Of a DNA stretch of 59,530 bases, positions 1,902 through 53,017 are shown piece by piece. The position numbers and the translations under genes were made by a program. Below the pieces are notes generated by a model. The model did no database searches and had not been told where the DNA came from. It saw only the letters and a program-made list of their open reading frames with translations. Source of the DNA: Betaproteobacteria bacterium (lineage in GTDB: Bacteria; Pseudomonadota; Gammaproteobacteria; Burkholderiales; SG8-41); NCBI GenBank assembly GCA_900299145.1, contig OMIN01000095.1, forward strand, positions 1 through 59,530, written 5' to 3'. Numbering within the stretch: the stretch's first letter is position 1; each line of letters starts with the position of its first letter.

Positions 1902-2684
1902 TCAAATGGCTCGCGCCATGGCCGCCGCAGCTTCCACCGAAAGCGCGTCGCCGGTGATGCCGCCTTCGAGCGCATCCTTGTCGAACGTGAGGAACGCCAC
2001 GGACGCGCCTGCCTCGCCCGTGATTATAGGCTCAACTGGCTCGTCGCTGCGCACGTAGCGAAATCCCGGCGGGCCGATTTCCCGGCCGTCCATGAACACC
2101 GAGCCTTCGAGCACGACTTCAAAGCGCCCGTAAGCCGGCGCTGGCATGCCGAGCGCCGCGTGCGGTGGGTTGCGCGTCACCACGGCTGCGGGGCCGTAAT
2201 CCGGGGGGATCAGAAACTTGAATTCACCGGTATCGGCGTTGTTCTCGCCGCGAGGCAGCGGCTGCCATTGAAAATCCGCCGCCAGCGCGGCATACAGGCG
2301 TCCCTGAAGATTGATCTGCCGCCGCGCTTCCAGATTGCCCATGGCAATAATGCCGCCGGCGCGCGGGTGCAGTACCAGCATGTCGTGGCTGCCAGACACC
2401 GCGAACGGGCCGTAGGGCATGTTGTGATCGGTGTAATGGATCGCCAGCGATTCAAGGTGTTTCACGCCGCGCGGAAAATCCATCGCGCCGTTGAGCAGCA
2501 ACTGGAACTGCGCGGTGAGATGCATGTGCGCGTAGACGGAAGGGCAGTCGTCAAAGCGAAAACGCATCGCTTCCGGCCCGCCGTCTTCGCCGGAGAGCAG
2601 CAACTGACAGGCGAACGTGATCCCTTCGGAAACGCTGCGTTTCCAGGGGGCGTTGGCGGAATCGACTATGTAGCTTTGAGGCAT
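1902..2684 (-). CDS. Cupin-like protein of unknown function
   Basis: A 260-residue soluble protein starting at MPQSYIVDS. The frame stays open 48 codons further upstream, but that stretch does not look coding. Beta-rich segments with HLTAQFQLLLNG, HYTDHNMPYGPF and a second repeat near FEVVLEGSVFMDGREIGPPGFRYV suggest a two-barrel cupin with scattered histidines. No specific family is recognised. It lies 71 nt from the oppositely facing DsbA-family gene and is divergent from the TusA-like gene. A metal-binding or dioxygenase-like role is only a guess from the fold. Confidence 0.65.
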   Translation of the reverse strand: MPQSYIVDSANAPWKRSVSEGITFACQLLLSGEDGGPEAMRFRFDDCPSVYAHMHLTAQFQLLLNGAMDFPRGVKHLESLAIHYTDHNMPYGPFAVSGSHDMLVLHPRAGGIIAMGNLEARRQINLQGRLYAALAADFQWQPLPRGENNADTGEFKFLIPPDYGPAAVVTRNPPHAALGMPAPAYGRFEVVLEGSVFMDGREIGPPGFRYVRSDEPVEPIITGEAGASVAFLTFDKDALEGGITGDALSVEAAAAMARAI

Positions 2685-2886
2685 GGGAATGGAATCGGCG
2701 GTCCGGTTAACCTTACAATCGCAAGACGCATTGTATGCAAGGCGCACGCGGCTTGCAAAAAATGGGAAAACGGGGCATGGAATTCGGGTATGGAATTTAC
2801 GAAGATGCGCTGTAAGGAAACCCGCCACGGCGGCGACCGATGACGTATCATCGTCCCGTCACGTACGCAGATGAAATAGCTTTTGC

Positions 2887-3144
2887 ATGACTGTCATCAA
2901 TGAATCCGGCGATTCATTTGCCACCGACGCGCAGTGGGACGCAGGCGATCTGGGCTGCGGCGATCTGGTGTTGGCATTGCGCTCGCGGTTGAACGCCATG
3001 CCCGGCCAAGTGCTGCTGGTGACCGCGCGCGATGCGGGTGCTCGCGAGGACATTCCAGCATTTTGCCGCATGACGGGGCACCAGTTGCTGAACGCAGATA
3101 CAGCCAGTGCGCGTTACAGGATACGTGCACGCATGCCTAAGTAG
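2887..3144 (+). CDS. TusA/SirA-like sulfur carrier protein
   Basis: An 85-residue protein with the TusA fold pattern. The sequence WDAGDLGCGDLVLALRSRL resembles the family's CPxP helix, but the proline after the active cysteine is replaced by glycine. It is followed by the strand GQVLLVTARDAGAREDIPAFCRMTGH. TusA-like proteins carry persulfide sulfur on this cysteine. It is followed 46 nt later by a DsrE-family gene, a common partner in sulfur relay. The C-terminal arm is short and basic. It may feed sulfur to a molybdenum cofactor or thiolation pathway, but that is inferred only from its neighbours. Confidence 0.75.
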   Translation: MTVINESGDSFATDAQWDAGDLGCGDLVLALRSRLNAMPGQVLLVTARDAGAREDIPAFCRMTGHQLLNADTASARYRIRARMPK

Positions 3145-3154
3145 CTAAGTATTG

Positions 3155-3180
3155 TAAGTATCTGTTTTAATTAATTTATT
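3155..3180 (+). repeat. AT-rich boundary motif, copy 1
   Basis: Reads TAAGTATCTGTTTTAATT and onward. It lies between the TusA-like and DsrE genes, 10 nt before the DsrE start, with the Shine-Dalgarno TGGAGG just after it. Confidence 0.8.
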
Positions 3181-3190
3181 TGGAGGCATC

Positions 3191-3553
3191 ATGGCAGGAA
3201 AATTTGTCATCAGTTTGACGCGCGCGAAAGACGACGCGGATCGTGCGACGGTTGCATTTGTGGTGGCCAACGCGGCAGTGGCCGGCGACAAAGATGTGGT
3301 GATGTTTCTGAGCCTTGAAGGCGTGCGTCTGTCGCAGAAAGGCTATGCCGATGACGTGCACGAATCCGGCTTCGCGCCGCTAAAGGAATTGATGACGAAT
3401 TTCGTCAACGCCGGCGGCAAGATTTACGTGTGCACGCCATGTTTGAAGAAACGCAATCTCGACGAAAACAATCTGGTGCCCGGTGCGATCATGGCAGGTG
3501 GTGCGAAGGTGGTGGAATTCATGGGTGAGGCCTGCCCGAGCTTGAGTTACTGA
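3191..3553 (+). CDS. DsrE-family protein
   Basis: A 120-residue cytoplasmic protein of the DsrE/DsrF-like fold. The N-terminal strand KFVISLTRAKDD is followed by a helix, then VVMFLSLEGVRL, a helix GFAPLKELMTNFVNAGG, and YVCTPCLKKRNL holding two cysteines in a CxxC pair. It ends near GEACPSLSY. The family transfers or holds sulfane sulfur. TGGAGG sits a few nt upstream of the ATG. The phnD-like gene starts 8 nt after the stop, so the two are very likely co-transcribed, an unusual pairing of sulfur relay and an importer. Confidence 0.85.
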   Translation: MAGKFVISLTRAKDDADRATVAFVVANAAVAGDKDVVMFLSLEGVRLSQKGYADDVHESGFAPLKELMTNFVNAGGKIYVCTPCLKKRNLDENNLVPGAIMAGGAKVVEFMGEACPSLSY

Positions 3554-3561
3554 GTAAGTTT

Positions 3562-4443
3562 GTGGTTACGCGTAGAAAATTTGCGACGGCAACCTCGGGC
3601 GCGGTGACTATGTTGGCGCTGGGTGCGCTGCGGCCTGCGTTTGCGCAATCCAGAAAGCCTCTGCGCTTTGCCGTCGGTCCGTTTTTGCCTAGCGCCGAAG
3701 ACACTCGCAAGGCATTTGGCCCGGTGTTCGCGCATGTGGCGAAGGAGCTTGGCGTCGAGCACGAACTTTCGGTCACCACCGACTGGGCAGGCATGGCGGT
3801 GGCGATGGCTTCAGGCAATCTCGATCTTGCGTGGATGGGGCCGTGGGGATACGTGATCGCCAACAACGCGTCGGATTGTCAGGCCATCGCCACGGTCAAG
3901 TATGACGGCAAACCGGTGTATCACGCTATTGTAGTCGGGCGGCCCGAACTGAAAATCGCCAAGTTTCCGCAGGATGCGAAAGGGCTGTCGATGTCGTTCG
4001 CGGATGTCGGCTCGACCTCGGGCTGGCTGGTGCCGACGTGGTACGCCAAGGAAGTTTGGAAAATCGATCCGAAAACGTTTTGGAAATACAGCGAGGGCGC
4101 ATCGCACCCGGCAAATGAAATTGCCGTGCAGGCGGGGCAGACCGATCTGGCCACCGATTTCGACCGCAACCGTAACGCGATGATTGCCAGCGGCCGCATC
4201 AAGGCCGAGAGCACGAAAATTTTCTGGACATCCGACCCGCTGCCCAATGATGCCATCGCGGTGCCCATGGGCGCGCCGCGCGAGTTTACCGACCGCGTGC
4301 GGAGGATTCTGACGGCGATTACGCCGGAACAGGCCAGGACGCTGCTGCCGCCACGCTACACCGGCTTTGTCGCCGCGACCCATAAGTCTTACGAAATGAT
4401 CGAGAAAGCGGGCGTCGCTGTGGGCAAGATCAAGCCCCGGTAA
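3562..4443 (+). CDS. phnD: PhnD-like periplasmic substrate-binding protein
   Basis: This 293-residue protein begins at GTG. It has a twin-arginine-like signal (VTRRKFATATSGAV...RPAFAQ) and then the PhnD fold: LRFAVGPFLPSAEDTRKAFGPV, NLDLAWMGPWGYV and FADVGSTSGWLVP. The SVGSTSG-like anion-binding motif is typical of phosphonate/phosphite/phosphate-binding proteins of ABC importers. It is followed directly by phnE (4-base ATG/TAA overlap style) and phnC. No C-P lyase or phosphite dehydrogenase gene is in the window, so the ligand is uncertain. The operon also carries TusA-like and DsrE genes upstream. Confidence 0.85.
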   Translation: MVTRRKFATATSGAVTMLALGALRPAFAQSRKPLRFAVGPFLPSAEDTRKAFGPVFAHVAKELGVEHELSVTTDWAGMAVAMASGNLDLAWMGPWGYVIANNASDCQAIATVKYDGKPVYHAIVVGRPELKIAKFPQDAKGLSMSFADVGSTSGWLVPTWYAKEVWKIDPKTFWKYSEGASHPANEIAVQAGQTDLATDFDRNRNAMIASGRIKAESTKIFWTSDPLPNDAIAVPMGAPREFTDRVRRILTAITPEQARTLLPPRYTGFVAATHKSYEMIEKAGVAVGKIKPR

Positions 4444-49261: not shown

Positions 49262-50203
49262 CTATTCCGCCTTGGCGCCGGAAATTTTAATGACGCGTGC
49301 CCATTTTTCGTGTTCGGTCTTGATGTAGGCCGCGAATTCCATGGCACTGCCACCCGCGATTTCCGCGCCGATGGCGGCGTAGCGTTCTTTCAGTTCCGGC
49401 AACGCCCTGTTGGTGACGGCGTTGAGTCTGTCGACCAGCGCGCGCGGCGTCCTGGCGGGTGCCCCGAGGCCATACCAGCCGATGACTTCAAAGCCTGGCA
49501 CGCCGGATTCGGCGATGGTGGGAATATCCGGCGTGGCCGACGCGCGTCTTGATGAAGTAACACCGAGCGCACGCACGCGGCCCGATTTGATGTGCGGCAC
49601 CAGCCCGCCGATGGCGGTAAAGCTGACATGCACTTCGCCTGCGATCAGCGCGCTATTGGCCTGTGAGCCGCTTTTGTATGGCACGTGAATCATGTCGACG
49701 CCGGCCATGTGCTTGAACAATTCTCCCGTCAGATGATTTGAGCCACCGATGCCGCTGGAGGCATAGGTGAGCCGTTGCGTTTTTGCCAGCGCGATGAGTT
49801 CTTTCACATTCACGGCCTGCACCGACGTGCGCACGGAGAGCACATACGGCGTGAACACGGTGAGAATGATCGGCGCAAAATCCCGCAGCGGATCGTAGCC
49901 GATATTCGGGCGCAGGCTGGGCGTGACCACATGCGTGGGCGACATCGCCAGCAGCGTGTAACCATCGGGCGCGGACTTGGCGACGATTTCAATGGCGATA
50001 ATGCCGCCCGCGCTGGGGCGGTTATCCACCACAAACGATTGGCCCAGCATGTCGGTGAGCCGGGTCGTCAACAGCCGTGCGATGGTATCCGAGCCGCCGC
50101 CCGGGCCGAGGCCTACGACCAGGCGAACGGGGCGCGTGGGGTAGTCCTGCGCGCGCACGGCAGATGTGATGGCCAGCAGCAACAGGGCGGGGAGCAACTT
50201 CAT
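49262..50203 (-). CDS. Bug-family (tripartite tricarboxylate) receptor
   Basis: A 313-residue receptor with signal peptide MKLLPALLLLAITSAVRAQ, then DYPTRPVRLVVGLGPGGGSDTIARLLTTRLTDMLG, VDNRPSAGGIIAIEIVAKSAPDGYTLLA, IGYDPLRDFAPI and RLTYASSGIGGSNHLTGELFKHMAGVDMIHVPYKS. The longer open frame to 50302 is not used because the signal fixes the start. It stands 34 nt upstream of the secreted-protein gene on the same strand. Its ligand is unknown. Confidence 0.9.
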   Translation of the reverse strand: MKLLPALLLLAITSAVRAQDYPTRPVRLVVGLGPGGGSDTIARLLTTRLTDMLGQSFVVDNRPSAGGIIAIEIVAKSAPDGYTLLAMSPTHVVTPSLRPNIGYDPLRDFAPIILTVFTPYVLSVRTSVQAVNVKELIALAKTQRLTYASSGIGGSNHLTGELFKHMAGVDMIHVPYKSGSQANSALIAGEVHVSFTAIGGLVPHIKSGRVRALGVTSSRRASATPDIPTIAESGVPGFEVIGWYGLGAPARTPRALVDRLNAVTNRALPELKERYAAIGAEIAGGSAMEFAAYIKTEHEKWARVIKISGAKAE

Positions 50204-50322
50204 GGCGTTCCGGATTCGCGAATGGCGGAGAGTATTGATCTTATACCGTCCTATGCGATGGACGCGCAAGCGGTTTGGCGCTAAGGTTGCATGAGCTGCC
50301 AAAAAATATTGAGGAGCGTGAC

Positions 50323-50865
50323 ATGGACAAACCCGTAGACGGCAACAATCTGCCCGCCGAAGTGGGCCAACGCATCATTGATAAACCGGAGCTGCCGCCG
50401 CAGGGCGTCACCACCGACAATGAAGTGTTCACCGAGGTTGTGCTGGGCAAAGGGCAATTAAAGCGTGGCACCTTTCGCCATTTTGAAGTGTTCTGCGACG
50501 AAGCACAGCGCATCGGTGGTGACGATTTGTATCCATCGCCGATGACTTATCTGGCGATGGGCGTGGGGTTCTGACTGCTGACTCAGGTTGCGCGGTACGC
50601 GCACATGATGAAGCTGACGATCAAGGACGCCAAGGTGAAAGTGCGTTTTCGAAAATTCCTTGGCGGCTCGGTGCTGAAAGGCACGGTATATAACCGCTGG
50701 GACGGCGTGGATACGCATCTGATGGTGGAAAGCGACGCGCCGGAAGAAAAGCTGCGTCACCTGATCAAAAATGCGAAGGCGGGTTGTTTTGCCGAGGGGT
50801 TAATCGAGCAGAAAGTGCCGTTGAACAGCACGATTGAGGTGAATGGCAATGCGTTCAGTCTGTGA
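50323..50865 (+). CDS. OsmC-family protein with in-frame UGA (probable selenoprotein)
   Basis: Read through the TGA at 50572-50574, this is a 180-residue OsmC-family protein with Sec at residue 84. Before the TGA the text is YPSPMTYLAMGVGF, and after it LLTQVARYAHMMKLTI. In ordinary OsmC proteins PSP is followed by ten residues and then the peroxidatic cysteine (pattern PSPLEYLLAALAGC); here ten residues follow PSP and then comes TGA. The second conserved cysteine is C155 (KNAKAGCFAEG). OsmC proteins reduce organic hydroperoxides through these two residues. The start at ATG has GAGGAG upstream. Annotated without recoding, it would appear as two short ORFs. The SECIS-like hairpin follows. Confidence 0.85.
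50572..50574 (+). other. In-frame UGA, predicted selenocysteine codon
   Basis: TGA at codon 84 of the OsmC frame, at the family's cysteine position. Downstream sequence stays in frame and codes for the rest of the domain. Confidence 0.82.
50586..50604 (+). promoter_or_regulatory. SECIS-like stem-loop
   Basis: RNA sequence GGUUGCGCGGUACGCGCAC. Pairs: G587-C604, U588-A603, bulged U589, then four G-C pairs (590-602 to 593-599), loop GGUAC. The hairpin starts 11 nt after the UGA. The E. coli fdhF SECIS has the same 11-nt distance, the same bulged U and a GGU loop. Confidence 0.8.
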
Positions 50866-51046: not shown

Positions 51047-51967
51047 ATGCCGCGCATCGAAGCCTACGAAAACGTCAAACACAAGAAGCTCACGCGCAAT
51101 CCGCCAGGCGGTGGCACGGCGTGGCGTACGGATTTCATGCGTCCGGCACAGGGCGAGAAAGAGCCGATGGCGTTTCTGGCGGAAGGTACGCCGCATCGCG
51201 TGATTAAGCCGCATTTTCATGAAGTCGACCAATTTCAGGTGATCGTCAGCGGTGGCGGTGTTATCGGCAAGCATCCGTTGTCGCTGAATGCGGTGCATTT
51301 TTCGCGTGCGCATACGCCTTATGGCCCGTTGACCGGCGCCGAGGAAGGCGTGGGCTTTTTGACGCTGCGCGCCGAGTGGGATCCGGGGGCGCAGTACATT
51401 CCTGCGGCCAAGGAAAAGCTGGTGTCGGTGCCCAACCGCAAGCCGTGGCAGGTGACCGAAGCGCCGAAGTTCGAGGGTAACGCCGATGTCAACATTCACG
51501 CTTTTGAGCAGATCAAGGACGATCGTGGCCTCGCGGCGTATTCGCTAAAGCTCGCGCCAAACGTGCAAATTGCCGGGCCGGATGCGTCCAAGGGCAATGG
51601 CCAGTATCTGATTGTCACCAAGGGCAGCGTGAATTATCAGGGCAAGGAATACAAGGCGATTTCCATTGCCTTTACCAAGCCGGATGAAGGCAGCTTCCCG
51701 ATCATCGCCGGGCCGGAGGGCCTTGAAGCGCTGGTGCTGAATTTCCCGCGCCTTGAGACCGCCAAGGCGTTCGTTCCGGAAGTCACACAGCCCAAGGCGT
51801 ATCGCGTGTGGCAATGCCTGCTGTGCGCGTTTGCCTACGATGAAGCCAAGGGCATGCCGGAAGAAGGCATCCCCGCCGGCACTCGCTGGGAAGATGTGCC
51901 CGACACCTGGACCTGCCCTGATTGCGCTGCGAGCAAGGCGGATTTTGATATGGTGGTTGTGGCCTGA
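51047..51967 (+). CDS. Cupin protein with C-terminal rubredoxin domain
   Basis: A 306-residue cytoplasmic protein. The N-terminal part is a cupin (HRVIKPHFHEVDQFQVIVSGGG, with H56, H58 and E59 as possible metal ligands) and continues as a second cupin-like half. The C-terminus is a full rubredoxin fold: YRVWQCLLCAFAYDEAKGMPEEGIPAGTRWEDVPDTWTCPDC, with C257, C260, C290 and C293 binding one iron. Such a fusion could pass electrons to an iron-dependent oxygenase in one chain. It is followed by a strong terminator and is located near the OsmC selenoprotein. Confidence 0.85.
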   Translation: MPRIEAYENVKHKKLTRNPPGGGTAWRTDFMRPAQGEKEPMAFLAEGTPHRVIKPHFHEVDQFQVIVSGGGVIGKHPLSLNAVHFSRAHTPYGPLTGAEEGVGFLTLRAEWDPGAQYIPAAKEKLVSVPNRKPWQVTEAPKFEGNADVNIHAFEQIKDDRGLAAYSLKLAPNVQIAGPDASKGNGQYLIVTKGSVNYQGKEYKAISIAFTKPDEGSFPIIAGPEGLEALVLNFPRLETAKAFVPEVTQPKAYRVWQCLLCAFAYDEAKGMPEEGIPAGTRWEDVPDTWTCPDCAASKADFDMVVVA

Positions 51968-51994
51968 CGTAGGGTAGCCGTATTGTTGAATCAT

Positions 51995-52020
51995 AAAAAG
52001 GCCGCGTTTGCGGCCTTTTT
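51995..52020 (+). terminator. Rho-independent terminator
   Basis: Perfect 11-bp stem AAAAAGGCCGC/GCGGCCTTTTT with loop GTTT, ending in a T-run. It follows the cupin-rubredoxin stop and precedes a Bug gene. Confidence 0.9.
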
Positions 52021-52054
52021 TGTCGGTGAATGGGTTGTGAAACCGGGAGGGTGT

Positions 52055-53017
52055 ATGCGGAATGTTTACGCTTTCGTGATGGCAGGCTGCATGCTGGCCG
52101 GAGCATCATCAGCTGCCGCGCAGAACTATCCCAACAAGCCCATACGCTTTATAACGCCCTATGCGCCGGGTGGCAGCACGTCGGTGATGGCGCGCATGAT
52201 CGGCCAGCATCTGACCGAATGCTGGGGGCAGAACGTGATTATCGACAACCGGCCCGGCGGCAACACCATTATCGGCACGGAAACCGTGGCGCGATCCGCC
52301 CCCGACGGCTACACGATACTGCTGGTGACCAGCACACTGTCGATATTGTCGAGCCTGACCAAAACGCCGTACGATCCGGTGAAGGATTTCGCGCCGGTGG
52401 CGACCATCGGCGTCAGTCCGCAGGTGCTGGTGCTGAATACCGCCGTGCCGGCCAACACCCTGCAGGAAGTCATTGCGCTGGCCAAGGCCAAGCCGGGGCA
52501 GCTCAACTATGGCTCGTCGGGCGCGGGCGGACCCACGCATCTCTCGGGCGAGGTGTTCAATATTGTCGCCGGCGTCAAAACACAGCACGTGCCGTACAAG
52601 GGCGCGGGGCAGGTAATGGTCGATCTCATCGGCGGGCATGTGCAAATGTTTTTTTCCGTGCCGGTGAATATCGTCAATCACGTCAAGGGCGGCAAGCTCA
52701 AGGCCATCGCCGTAACGGGGGCCAACCGCGTGCCAGCTTTGCCTAACATGCCGACATTTGCAGAAGCCGGCCTGCCGGGGTTTGATGTCAAAACCTGGAA
52801 CGGTGTAGTCGCGCCAGCCGCAACGCCCAAGCCCATCGTCGACAAGCTGTCCGCCGAGATCGCCGCGATGCTGGTGCTGCCCGCCATCAAGGAAAAGCTC
52901 GACGCGCTTGGGACCACCACAATGATTTCCACGCCTGAGCAATTCAGCGCGATGATCAAATCCGAAATCGCGCTTTATCTCAAGGTGATCAAGTCGGCGA
53001 ATATTCGCATCGAATGA
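52055..53017 (+). CDS. Bug-family (tripartite tricarboxylate) receptor
   Basis: A 320-residue receptor, preceded by GGGAGG. The signal peptide (MRNVYAFVMAGCMLAGASSAAAQ) leads to NYPNKPIRFITPYAPGGSTSVMARMIGQHLTECWG, IDNRPGGNTIIGTETVARSAPDGYTILLV, KTPYDPVKDFAPVATIG and QLNYGSSGAGGPTHLSGEVFN. It is the seventh receptor of this family in the window, again without tctAB neighbours. Confidence 0.9.
   Translation: MRNVYAFVMAGCMLAGASSAAAQNYPNKPIRFITPYAPGGSTSVMARMIGQHLTECWGQNVIIDNRPGGNTIIGTETVARSAPDGYTILLVTSTLSILSSLTKTPYDPVKDFAPVATIGVSPQVLVLNTAVPANTLQEVIALAKAKPGQLNYGSSGAGGPTHLSGEVFNIVAGVKTQHVPYKGAGQVMVDLIGGHVQMFFSVPVNIVNHVKGGKLKAIAVTGANRVPALPNMPTFAEAGLPGFDVKTWNGVVAPAATPKPIVDKLSAEIAAMLVLPAIKEKLDALGTTTMISTPEQFSAMIKSEIALYLKVIKSANIRIE

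Follow-up and report, generated by a model that had tools for sequence, protein, structure and literature searches.

An OsmC-like gene with an in-frame TGA in a betaproteobacterial genome very probably encodes a selenoprotein

A TGA codon lies inside a single OsmC-like reading frame

The window, i.e., the whole stretch of DNA analyzed (59,530 nucleotides; contig OMIN01000095.1 of the Betaproteobacteria bacterium assembly GCA_900299145.1), carries an OsmC-like gene with a TGA at codon 84. The gene starts with the ATG at 50323 and runs in a single frame throughout to a terminal TGA stop at 50863-50865. The features of the locus are as follows.

50312..50316, + strand: AGGAG, ribosome-binding-like, 6 nt 5′ of the ATG (direct sequence reading)
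50323..50865, + strand: predicted OsmC-like selenoprotein gene, 180 codons plus stop, Sec at codon 84 (NF041052, 170.3 bits; Pfam OsmC, 47.4 bits)
50572..50574, + strand: in-frame TGA, predicted to be read as selenocysteine, U84 (TGA in 79/80 loci and in 69/69 family matches)
50581..50583, + strand: Thr87 of the U-x-x-T motif (T in 85/85 distinct sequences; UxxT in Table 3 of PMC1088965)
50584..50607, + strand: putative bSECIS-type hairpin within the CDS (folds, pair counts, codon constraint, published bSECIS limits)
50593..50595, + strand: Arg91 codon CGG, overlapping the hairpin loop (CGG in 85/85 against a background of 0.19)
50785..50787, + strand: Cys155 (TGT), candidate resolving cysteine (invariant in the 17-sequence alignment; C in 85/85, or, row by row, in 84/85 of the residue count, where the remaining row stops short of the site)

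The initial annotation had joined two open frames, 50323-50574 and 50605-50865, into one OsmC domain. The coordinates agree, with ten sense codons (50575-50604) in the same frame between TGA-84 and the ATG at 50605, and so does the Pfam score of the product read through. The TGA was also rightly placed ten residues past the PSP motif (residues 71-73), and the second conserved cysteine is intact at codon 155. A GGAG lies within 20 nt upstream of 15 of 18 homologue starts, the window's gene counted in. Applying one length rule, we find 62 in-frame TGAs in the window with long open frames on either side, this one included, and the open frame across the TGA is therefore weak evidence by itself. 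What is not expected by chance is that a single protein family extends through the TGA.

The read-through product belongs to a known selenoprotein family

The first half alone, 5′ of the TGA, matched no Pfam family at E values up to 1, and the second half alone reached 23.5 bits against Pfam OsmC, under the cut-off of 27.5. The read-through product scored well above the cut-off of 95 for the NCBIfam model NF041052, "OsmC-related (seleno)protein" (OsmC_like_Se). Seventeen sequences, including the window's own, align through the TGA site; all 17 match NF041052, and no other model at E 0.001. The UxxT motif appears in the window protein as U84-L-L-T87. The expectation that such a gene would be missed by standard annotation holds in part: a pipeline without a Sec-aware model would yield two fragments for this OsmC-like selenoprotein (OsmC-Se) gene, but NCBIfam already has NF041052.

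Could the TGA instead be a stop, so that the real product is an 83-residue short protein, or two proteins with a restart at 50605? An ATG does stand at 50605, past the TGA, and the frame of the first half is open. However, neither half does well against Pfam by itself, and few codons of the protein are as conserved as those between the TGA and this ATG: in a count over 85 distinct sequences (of 96 records), L85, L86, T87, Q88, R91, Y92, and A93 are each invariant, 85/85. We consider a shortened product or separate products very improbable and prefer a single read-through protein.

The protein family has been known since 2005, and the window gene adds a member. Three Sec-OsmC sequences with the UxxT motif are tabulated from the Sargasso Sea set (PMC1088965) and five OsmC-like selenoprotein sequences from GOS (PMC2398784), in line with the marine-metagenome proteins mentioned in the initial annotation; an OsmC selenoprotein is also listed in tables of two reviews (PMC9312934 and PMC13188914). 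As far as the Sargasso Sea family is described in the table of PMC1088965, it shares with the present gene the OsmC domain, the Sec in U-x-x-T, and a predicted SECIS hairpin past the UGA. The Sargasso Sea and GOS entries come from marine metagenomes, whereas here the family is present in Betaproteobacteria MAGs, with more than one copy to a genome, and is also seen in records of Nitrospinota and Tectomicrobia.

The TGA recurs in nearly all close relatives

For a collection search blind to the residue at the TGA, the query was an alignment of the part 3′ of the TGA only (17 sequences), so that residue 84 could not bias the result. This search found 89 relatives, of which nine were dropped, leaving 80 loci. 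Site 84 was TGA in 79 of them and broken in one (L140). Among the 79 readable sites there was no Cys codon, a count that applies to close relatives, since the patterns used ([LM]LTQV[AS]RYA, GCFAE...) reach only these and Cys orthologues with altered query motifs would escape. By record title, most of the kept loci come from Betaproteobacteria, Burkholderiales, and Nitrospinota; Tectomicrobia and one Acidimicrobiales are also represented, and the records span several phyla. Because the TGA recurs in 79 of 80 loci drawn by a query without residue 84, we consider sequencing error excluded as its source.

Some record titles look wrong (Bordetella, Chitinophaga, Devosia). Twelve MAG records are titled Bordetella parapertussis (L073, L076, L083, L104, L107, L112, L117, L119, L126, L129, L140, and L150). 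Two of these, L073 and L112, correspond to contigs of G322, a genome of the window's genus, down to the position of the gene, so that the organism names look wrong.

Two genome surveys gave the same picture. In the order (399 genomes), ten genomes had matches over the cut-off, and all 19 matches carried one TGA. In the family (74 genomes), surveyed independently of the motif patterns of the blind search, 44 genomes were positive, with one TGA in 69/69 matches over the cut-off. Two further family matches fell under the cut-off, one in G399 (81 bits, no stop) and one at a contig end (G448:C37, 75.9 bits, one TGA). In the window's own genus OsmC-Se was present in 14/14 genomes. The highest copy number was five TGA matches per genome (G455 and G401), as counted in MAGs with contamination of 3% for G455 and 7% for G401; the matches on G322:C91 and C225, which may be two ends of one gene, were counted unjoined. 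Viral contigs gave 2 weak matches covering 22 residues.

The alternative that the TGA is an error, or that an ordinary Cys-OsmC gene has recently become a pseudogene through a nonsense change, draws on the split that plain annotation would make and on the decayed or broken copies seen in relatives (L070, L140). Against it, the TGA is kept in 79/80 loci of several phyla, the protein is conserved on both flanks of the TGA, a second copy in the same genome has the same TGA, and the codons past the TGA are under synonymous constraint (see below). We regard this alternative as already refuted by the recurrences and give it next to no probability; a TGA maintained as a sense codon remains the preferred reading.

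Some arrangements of the copies may be noted. L070 (G169:C98) and L140 are broken OsmC-Se copies with no alignable TGA site. L058 (5068-8299; G131:C21) carries a facing pair of OsmC-Se paralogues, separated by about 2.1 kb that contains Bug genes, and further close pairs lie on G453:C507, G457:C37, and G458:C12.

The genome encodes a complete Sec system

We checked the source genome (5.5 Mb, 158 contigs, 99.69% complete) for the Sec machinery. The genes for selA (568.6 bits), selB (442.7 bits), and tRNA-Sec (74.5 bits, over the gathering score) cluster at C110:61967-66572, and selD lies on contig C129 (422.6 bits) with one in-frame TGA of its own. All four of selA, selB, selC, and selD, which the initial annotation had named as the genes to look for, are thus present, as in a Sec-decoding organism. 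A gene for FdhA (formate dehydrogenase alpha) on contig C32 (1438.8 bits) has one TGA, in the motif ARIUHAPTV. A second OsmC-Se gene of the same genome, at C58:4597-5019 (155.8 bits in one scoring and 164.1 bits against NF041052 in another), has its TGA in the same column.

Across the order, selA was detected at E 1e-60 or better in 109/399 genomes, including 9 of the 10 with OsmC-Se; those ten also had selB (9/10) and tRNA-Sec (10/10). In one OsmC-Se genome, G144 (an 84% complete assembly with two OsmC-Se), neither selA nor selB was found.

Beside selA on contig C110 (L068, about 1995-3760, - strand) lies a divergent gene with an in-frame TGA in GIGAUGACTP. Read through, it matches Pfam UGSC at 83.8 bits (cut-off 25) and NCBIfam UGSC_fam at 54.4 bits, under the cut-off of 125. 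It has UGAC in place of the UGSC of the family name and a long C-terminal extension, and it is likely a further selenoprotein variant. The genome therewith has four TGA-bearing candidates besides FdhA: two OsmC genes, SelD, and the UGSC-family gene. A 2006 survey, in the passage concerned, gives FdhA as the sole selenoprotein in Sec-decoding Alphaproteobacteria, Betaproteobacteria, and Pseudomonadales (PMC1794560). With four candidates besides FdhA, betaproteobacterial selenium use in uncultured lineages would therefore be wider than in that account.

A constrained hairpin follows the TGA

Folding the sequence 3′ of the TGA, we find a hairpin that spans the 10th to the 33rd nucleotide past the TGA, with nine pairs as drawn and a bulged U. 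The apical loop is GUA, closed by a G-C pair, and GGUA lies at 50594-50597. The fdhF SECIS of E. coli presumably resembles this hairpin in its distance of about 20 nt past the UGA, its GGU loop, and a bulged U in the 5′ arm, and presumably differs from it in sequence and stem length.

The published bSECIS model, as given in the legend of Fig. 2 of PMC13188914, has an apical loop of 3-9 nt, an upper stem of 4-16 bp, an energy of at most -7.5 kcal/mol, a G at one or both of the first two loop nucleotides, and 16-37 nt from the UGA to the loop. In the window hairpin the loop is GUA, with its G in first position, the upper stem has five (minimum energy) or six (centroid) pairs, and 20 nt separate the UGA from the apical loop. 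All five 45-nt stretches folded lie below the energy limit (-14.3, -13.9, -9.3, -9.4, and -11.1 kcal/mol), with weak z-scores. Folded as a single sequence, the window hairpin is itself unexceptional (z -1.43, 17 of 200 shuffles as good), and the four other stretches gave z -0.77, -1.38, -1.16, and +0.51 (L053).

Pair counts were made over 60 distinct 45-nt stretches from the codon-analysis set. GGUA is unchanged in 60/60, and 96.9% of the pair cells hold. Breaks occur in outer pairs, in 8/60 sequences at 18-32, 5/60 at 16-33, 3/60 at 19-31, and 1/60 at 20-30. Pair 18-32 is UA in 38, GC in 13, CG in 1, and unpaired in 8; pair 19-31 is GC in 43, GU in 7, UA in 7, and unpaired in 3. The covariation score was matched by 0/500 shuffles. 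Only two pairs change on both sides, a number reached by 387/500 shuffles, and the number of pair types was reached by 262/500.

Codon choice was analyzed in 85 full-length sequences (of 86 distinct among 98 records), which overlap as records and are not independent. The strongest constraint falls on codons +5 to +10 past the TGA. Arg91 is CGG in 85/85 (background 0.19) and Tyr92 is TAC at 0.99 (0.50); Ala90 is GCG at 1.00 of 73 sequences and Ala93 is GCG at 0.99 (background 0.38 for both), and His94 is CAC at 0.97 of 70 (0.60). At other codons the commonest synonym mostly takes 0.4 to 0.8, with single columns higher. These observations point to a bSECIS-type element that is under constraint.

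Cys relatives carry cysteine at the TGA site

We compared stop-free matches of the order survey. Of 22 loci scanned, 20 gave matches; the two without, L020 and L021, come from the window's own genome. Thirteen domains belong to a fused double-OsmC kind, twelve of them second domains and one a single domain, and all 13 have Cys at both site 84 and site 155 and Thr at +3. In a further seven single-domain relatives, site 84 is Cys in 7/7 and site 155 in 6/7, and 3cje, the nearest solved structure, has Cys at both. The suggestion that Cys homologues have C at residue 84 is borne out by all three groups. In the first domains of the fused proteins, site 84 is Asp in the 11 of 11 rows that cover it, the twelfth falling short; these domains (L031, L036, L045, and others) have Asp and Ser where the second domains keep the redox cysteines.

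It might be argued that UGA-84 is read by ordinary suppression, or as Trp under a TGA=Trp code, since any code in which TGA specifies an amino acid would leave the frame open. But the genome has a complete Sec system with FdhA and SelD as clients, the gene and several of its homologues use TGA as their terminal stop, the stop-free relatives have Cys at the site (Asp in first domains) and not Trp, and the hairpin fits the bSECIS limits. Such decoding is extremely unlikely, and Sec is, from sequence comparison, almost certainly inserted at UGA-84.

In a tree with midpoint root, in which long branches were flagged, 85 Sec rows are parted from 8 Cys rows by one branch with a support of 89/70 (not starred). 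The tree omits L140, L073, and 12 of 19 rows of one locus set, these being copies of other rows or fragments (L066, L067). The topology is compatible with a single origin of Sec in OsmC-Se. The two OsmC-Se copies of the genome sit in different supported sets, one of 62 rows (98/99) and one of 8 rows (96/89), the latter also taking in Nitrospinota and Tectomicrobia rows; the two copies are therefore not recent duplicates of each other.

Both OsmC-Se and the Cys OsmC-like proteins (3cje and the fused second domains) combine the reactive residue at site 84 with T at +3, Q at +4, and Cys at 155. The latter proteins differ in having Cys rather than Sec and are distant in the tree, and the fused ones carry a first domain with neither residue. 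Since T and Q are common to the 13 fused-kind Cys domains and 3cje, the change in the active site would be older than, or independent of, selenium use.

Taking the conserved TGA, the Sec machinery, the constrained hairpin, and the NF041052 match together, we uphold the proposal of a probable selenoprotein. The gene very probably encodes one single-domain OsmC-fold selenoprotein in which TGA-84 is read as Sec, the best explanation of the whole.

A redox role of U84 and C155 is proposed

The AlphaFold model (pLDDT 82.6) places residue 84 in the middle of a long helix, 73-95. In Foldseek the leading matches were Ohr/OsmC structures (best E 3.2e-9). The canonical pair of Ohr/OsmC is present: U84 lies in the central helix, U84 and C155 each fall opposite a Cys of 3cje, and by sequence the two are homologous to the pair of redox cysteines found in OsmC relatives. 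Compared with the Ohr/OsmC peroxidases, OsmC-Se has the same fold (TMt 0.68 to 3eer) and, like them, combines a second Cys with a reactive residue borne on the central helix; it differs in having Sec and no Glu at -10, and identity is 10-18% among the 50 Foldseek matches listed.

Xylella Ohr has catalytic Glu51 and peroxidatic Cys61 (stated in PMC5962072). Ten residues before the reactive residue, with the register assumed gap-free, the 85 sequences have Met (71) or Leu (14), and none has Glu. For the catalytic Arg, which comes from the Arg19 loop in Ohr and a Gly-rich loop in OsmC, the candidates are R91, present in 85/85 but helix-borne, and R63, present in 65/85. The initial annotation had a conserved catalytic, peroxidatic cysteine at this site; Cys homologues do have Cys there, but the catalytic role is drawn from homology, and the Ohr Glu is not conserved. 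The part played in Ohr by the Arg-Glu network may fall here to T87, Q88, R91, and Y92, which sit on the same helix as U84.

We propose the following sequence of events. SelD, the product of a gene that itself has an in-frame TGA, would supply selenophosphate, and SelA would convert Ser-tRNA-Sec to Sec-tRNA-Sec. SelB would bind the hairpin just 3′ of UGA-84 and deliver Sec, giving a protein of 180 residues. U84, as the redox-active (peroxidatic) residue, would attack an organic hydroperoxide, and C155 would resolve it as a selenenylsulfide; we infer these two steps by analogy with Ohr as presented in PMC5962072. The selenenylsulfide would presumably be re-reduced by a cellular dithiol. Going by this analogy, we lean slightly toward hydroperoxide reduction as the activity of OsmC-Se.

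A selenoprotein with another thiol/selenol redox activity on the OsmC fold (e.g., YhfA-like) and no hydroperoxidase function is a serious alternative, one that we hold to be somewhat short of probable. Consistent with it, the Ohr catalytic Glu is absent while T87, Q88, R91, and Y92 are invariant, and no conserved operon partner points to a substrate. YhfA, of no known activity, is counted in the Ohr/OsmC family in the relevant part of PMC5962072, and the OsmC-like selenoprotein is assigned to COG1765 (YhfA) in a table of PMC9312934. On the other side, both redox positions are kept, and the top fold matches are Ohr and OsmC structures. Sec may also require less activation than Cys.

Some features of these data are less expected: the family is spread in Betaproteobacteria MAGs, close Cys orthologues are lacking, and the catalytic Glu of Ohr is missing. 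We tentatively suggest, as a minority view, that OsmC-Se is an obligately Se-dependent OsmC branch with Sec-only orthologues and up to five paralogues per genome in uncultured Betaproteobacteria, in which a helix-borne U-x-x-T-Q-x-x-R site replaces the Ohr Arg-Glu network; it would then be a new mechanistic class and not an improved Ohr. Because no Cys codon occurs at the 79 readable sites, the family is well suited to asking why selenium is retained.

Searching open-licence papers, we found no report of a multi-copy OsmC-Se expansion in the portions of text covered, nothing on selenoproteins with Nitrospinota, and nothing of use on selenoproteins with NCBIfam or Burkholderiales. The titles and abstract openings of this literature yielded no experiment on an OsmC selenoprotein, and the portion of the deep-Sep paper (PMC12013277) that was covered has 0 occurrences of OsmC.

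Bug-type and rubredoxin-tailed genes lie nearby

Clustering neighbors by BLAST with TGA as a stop, whereby selenoprotein neighbors would be split, we find a Bug-type (Bug/TctC) gene cluster near OsmC-Se in 40/81 loci, 77 genes in all. Apart from Bug, no neighbor family occurs in more than 10 of the 81 loci, i.e., a conserved operon was not seen among them. The 5.5 Mb genome has a large expansion of Bug/TctC solute-binding proteins, with members in the window at 49262-50302, 51983-53017, and elsewhere. At least 150 TctC matches were scored from 707 first-look candidates, the weakest listed having 232.9 bits against a cut-off of 27. The 150 correspond to about one per 37 kb and the 707 to one per 8 kb, the latter matching the rate near OsmC-Se. 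A functional link between Bug/TctC and OsmC-Se was not counted, as the background density of the 707 candidates would match the rate near the gene.

Downstream of OsmC-Se lies one further gene.

51047..51967, + strand: gene with a C-terminal rubredoxin domain (PF00301, 70 bits)

Its N-terminal part looks cupin-like by eye. Kin of this gene occur near OsmC-Se in 6/81 loci, within 1.7 kb in 4; we do not claim an operon. The rubredoxin-tailed protein is a possible electron donor to OsmC-Se.
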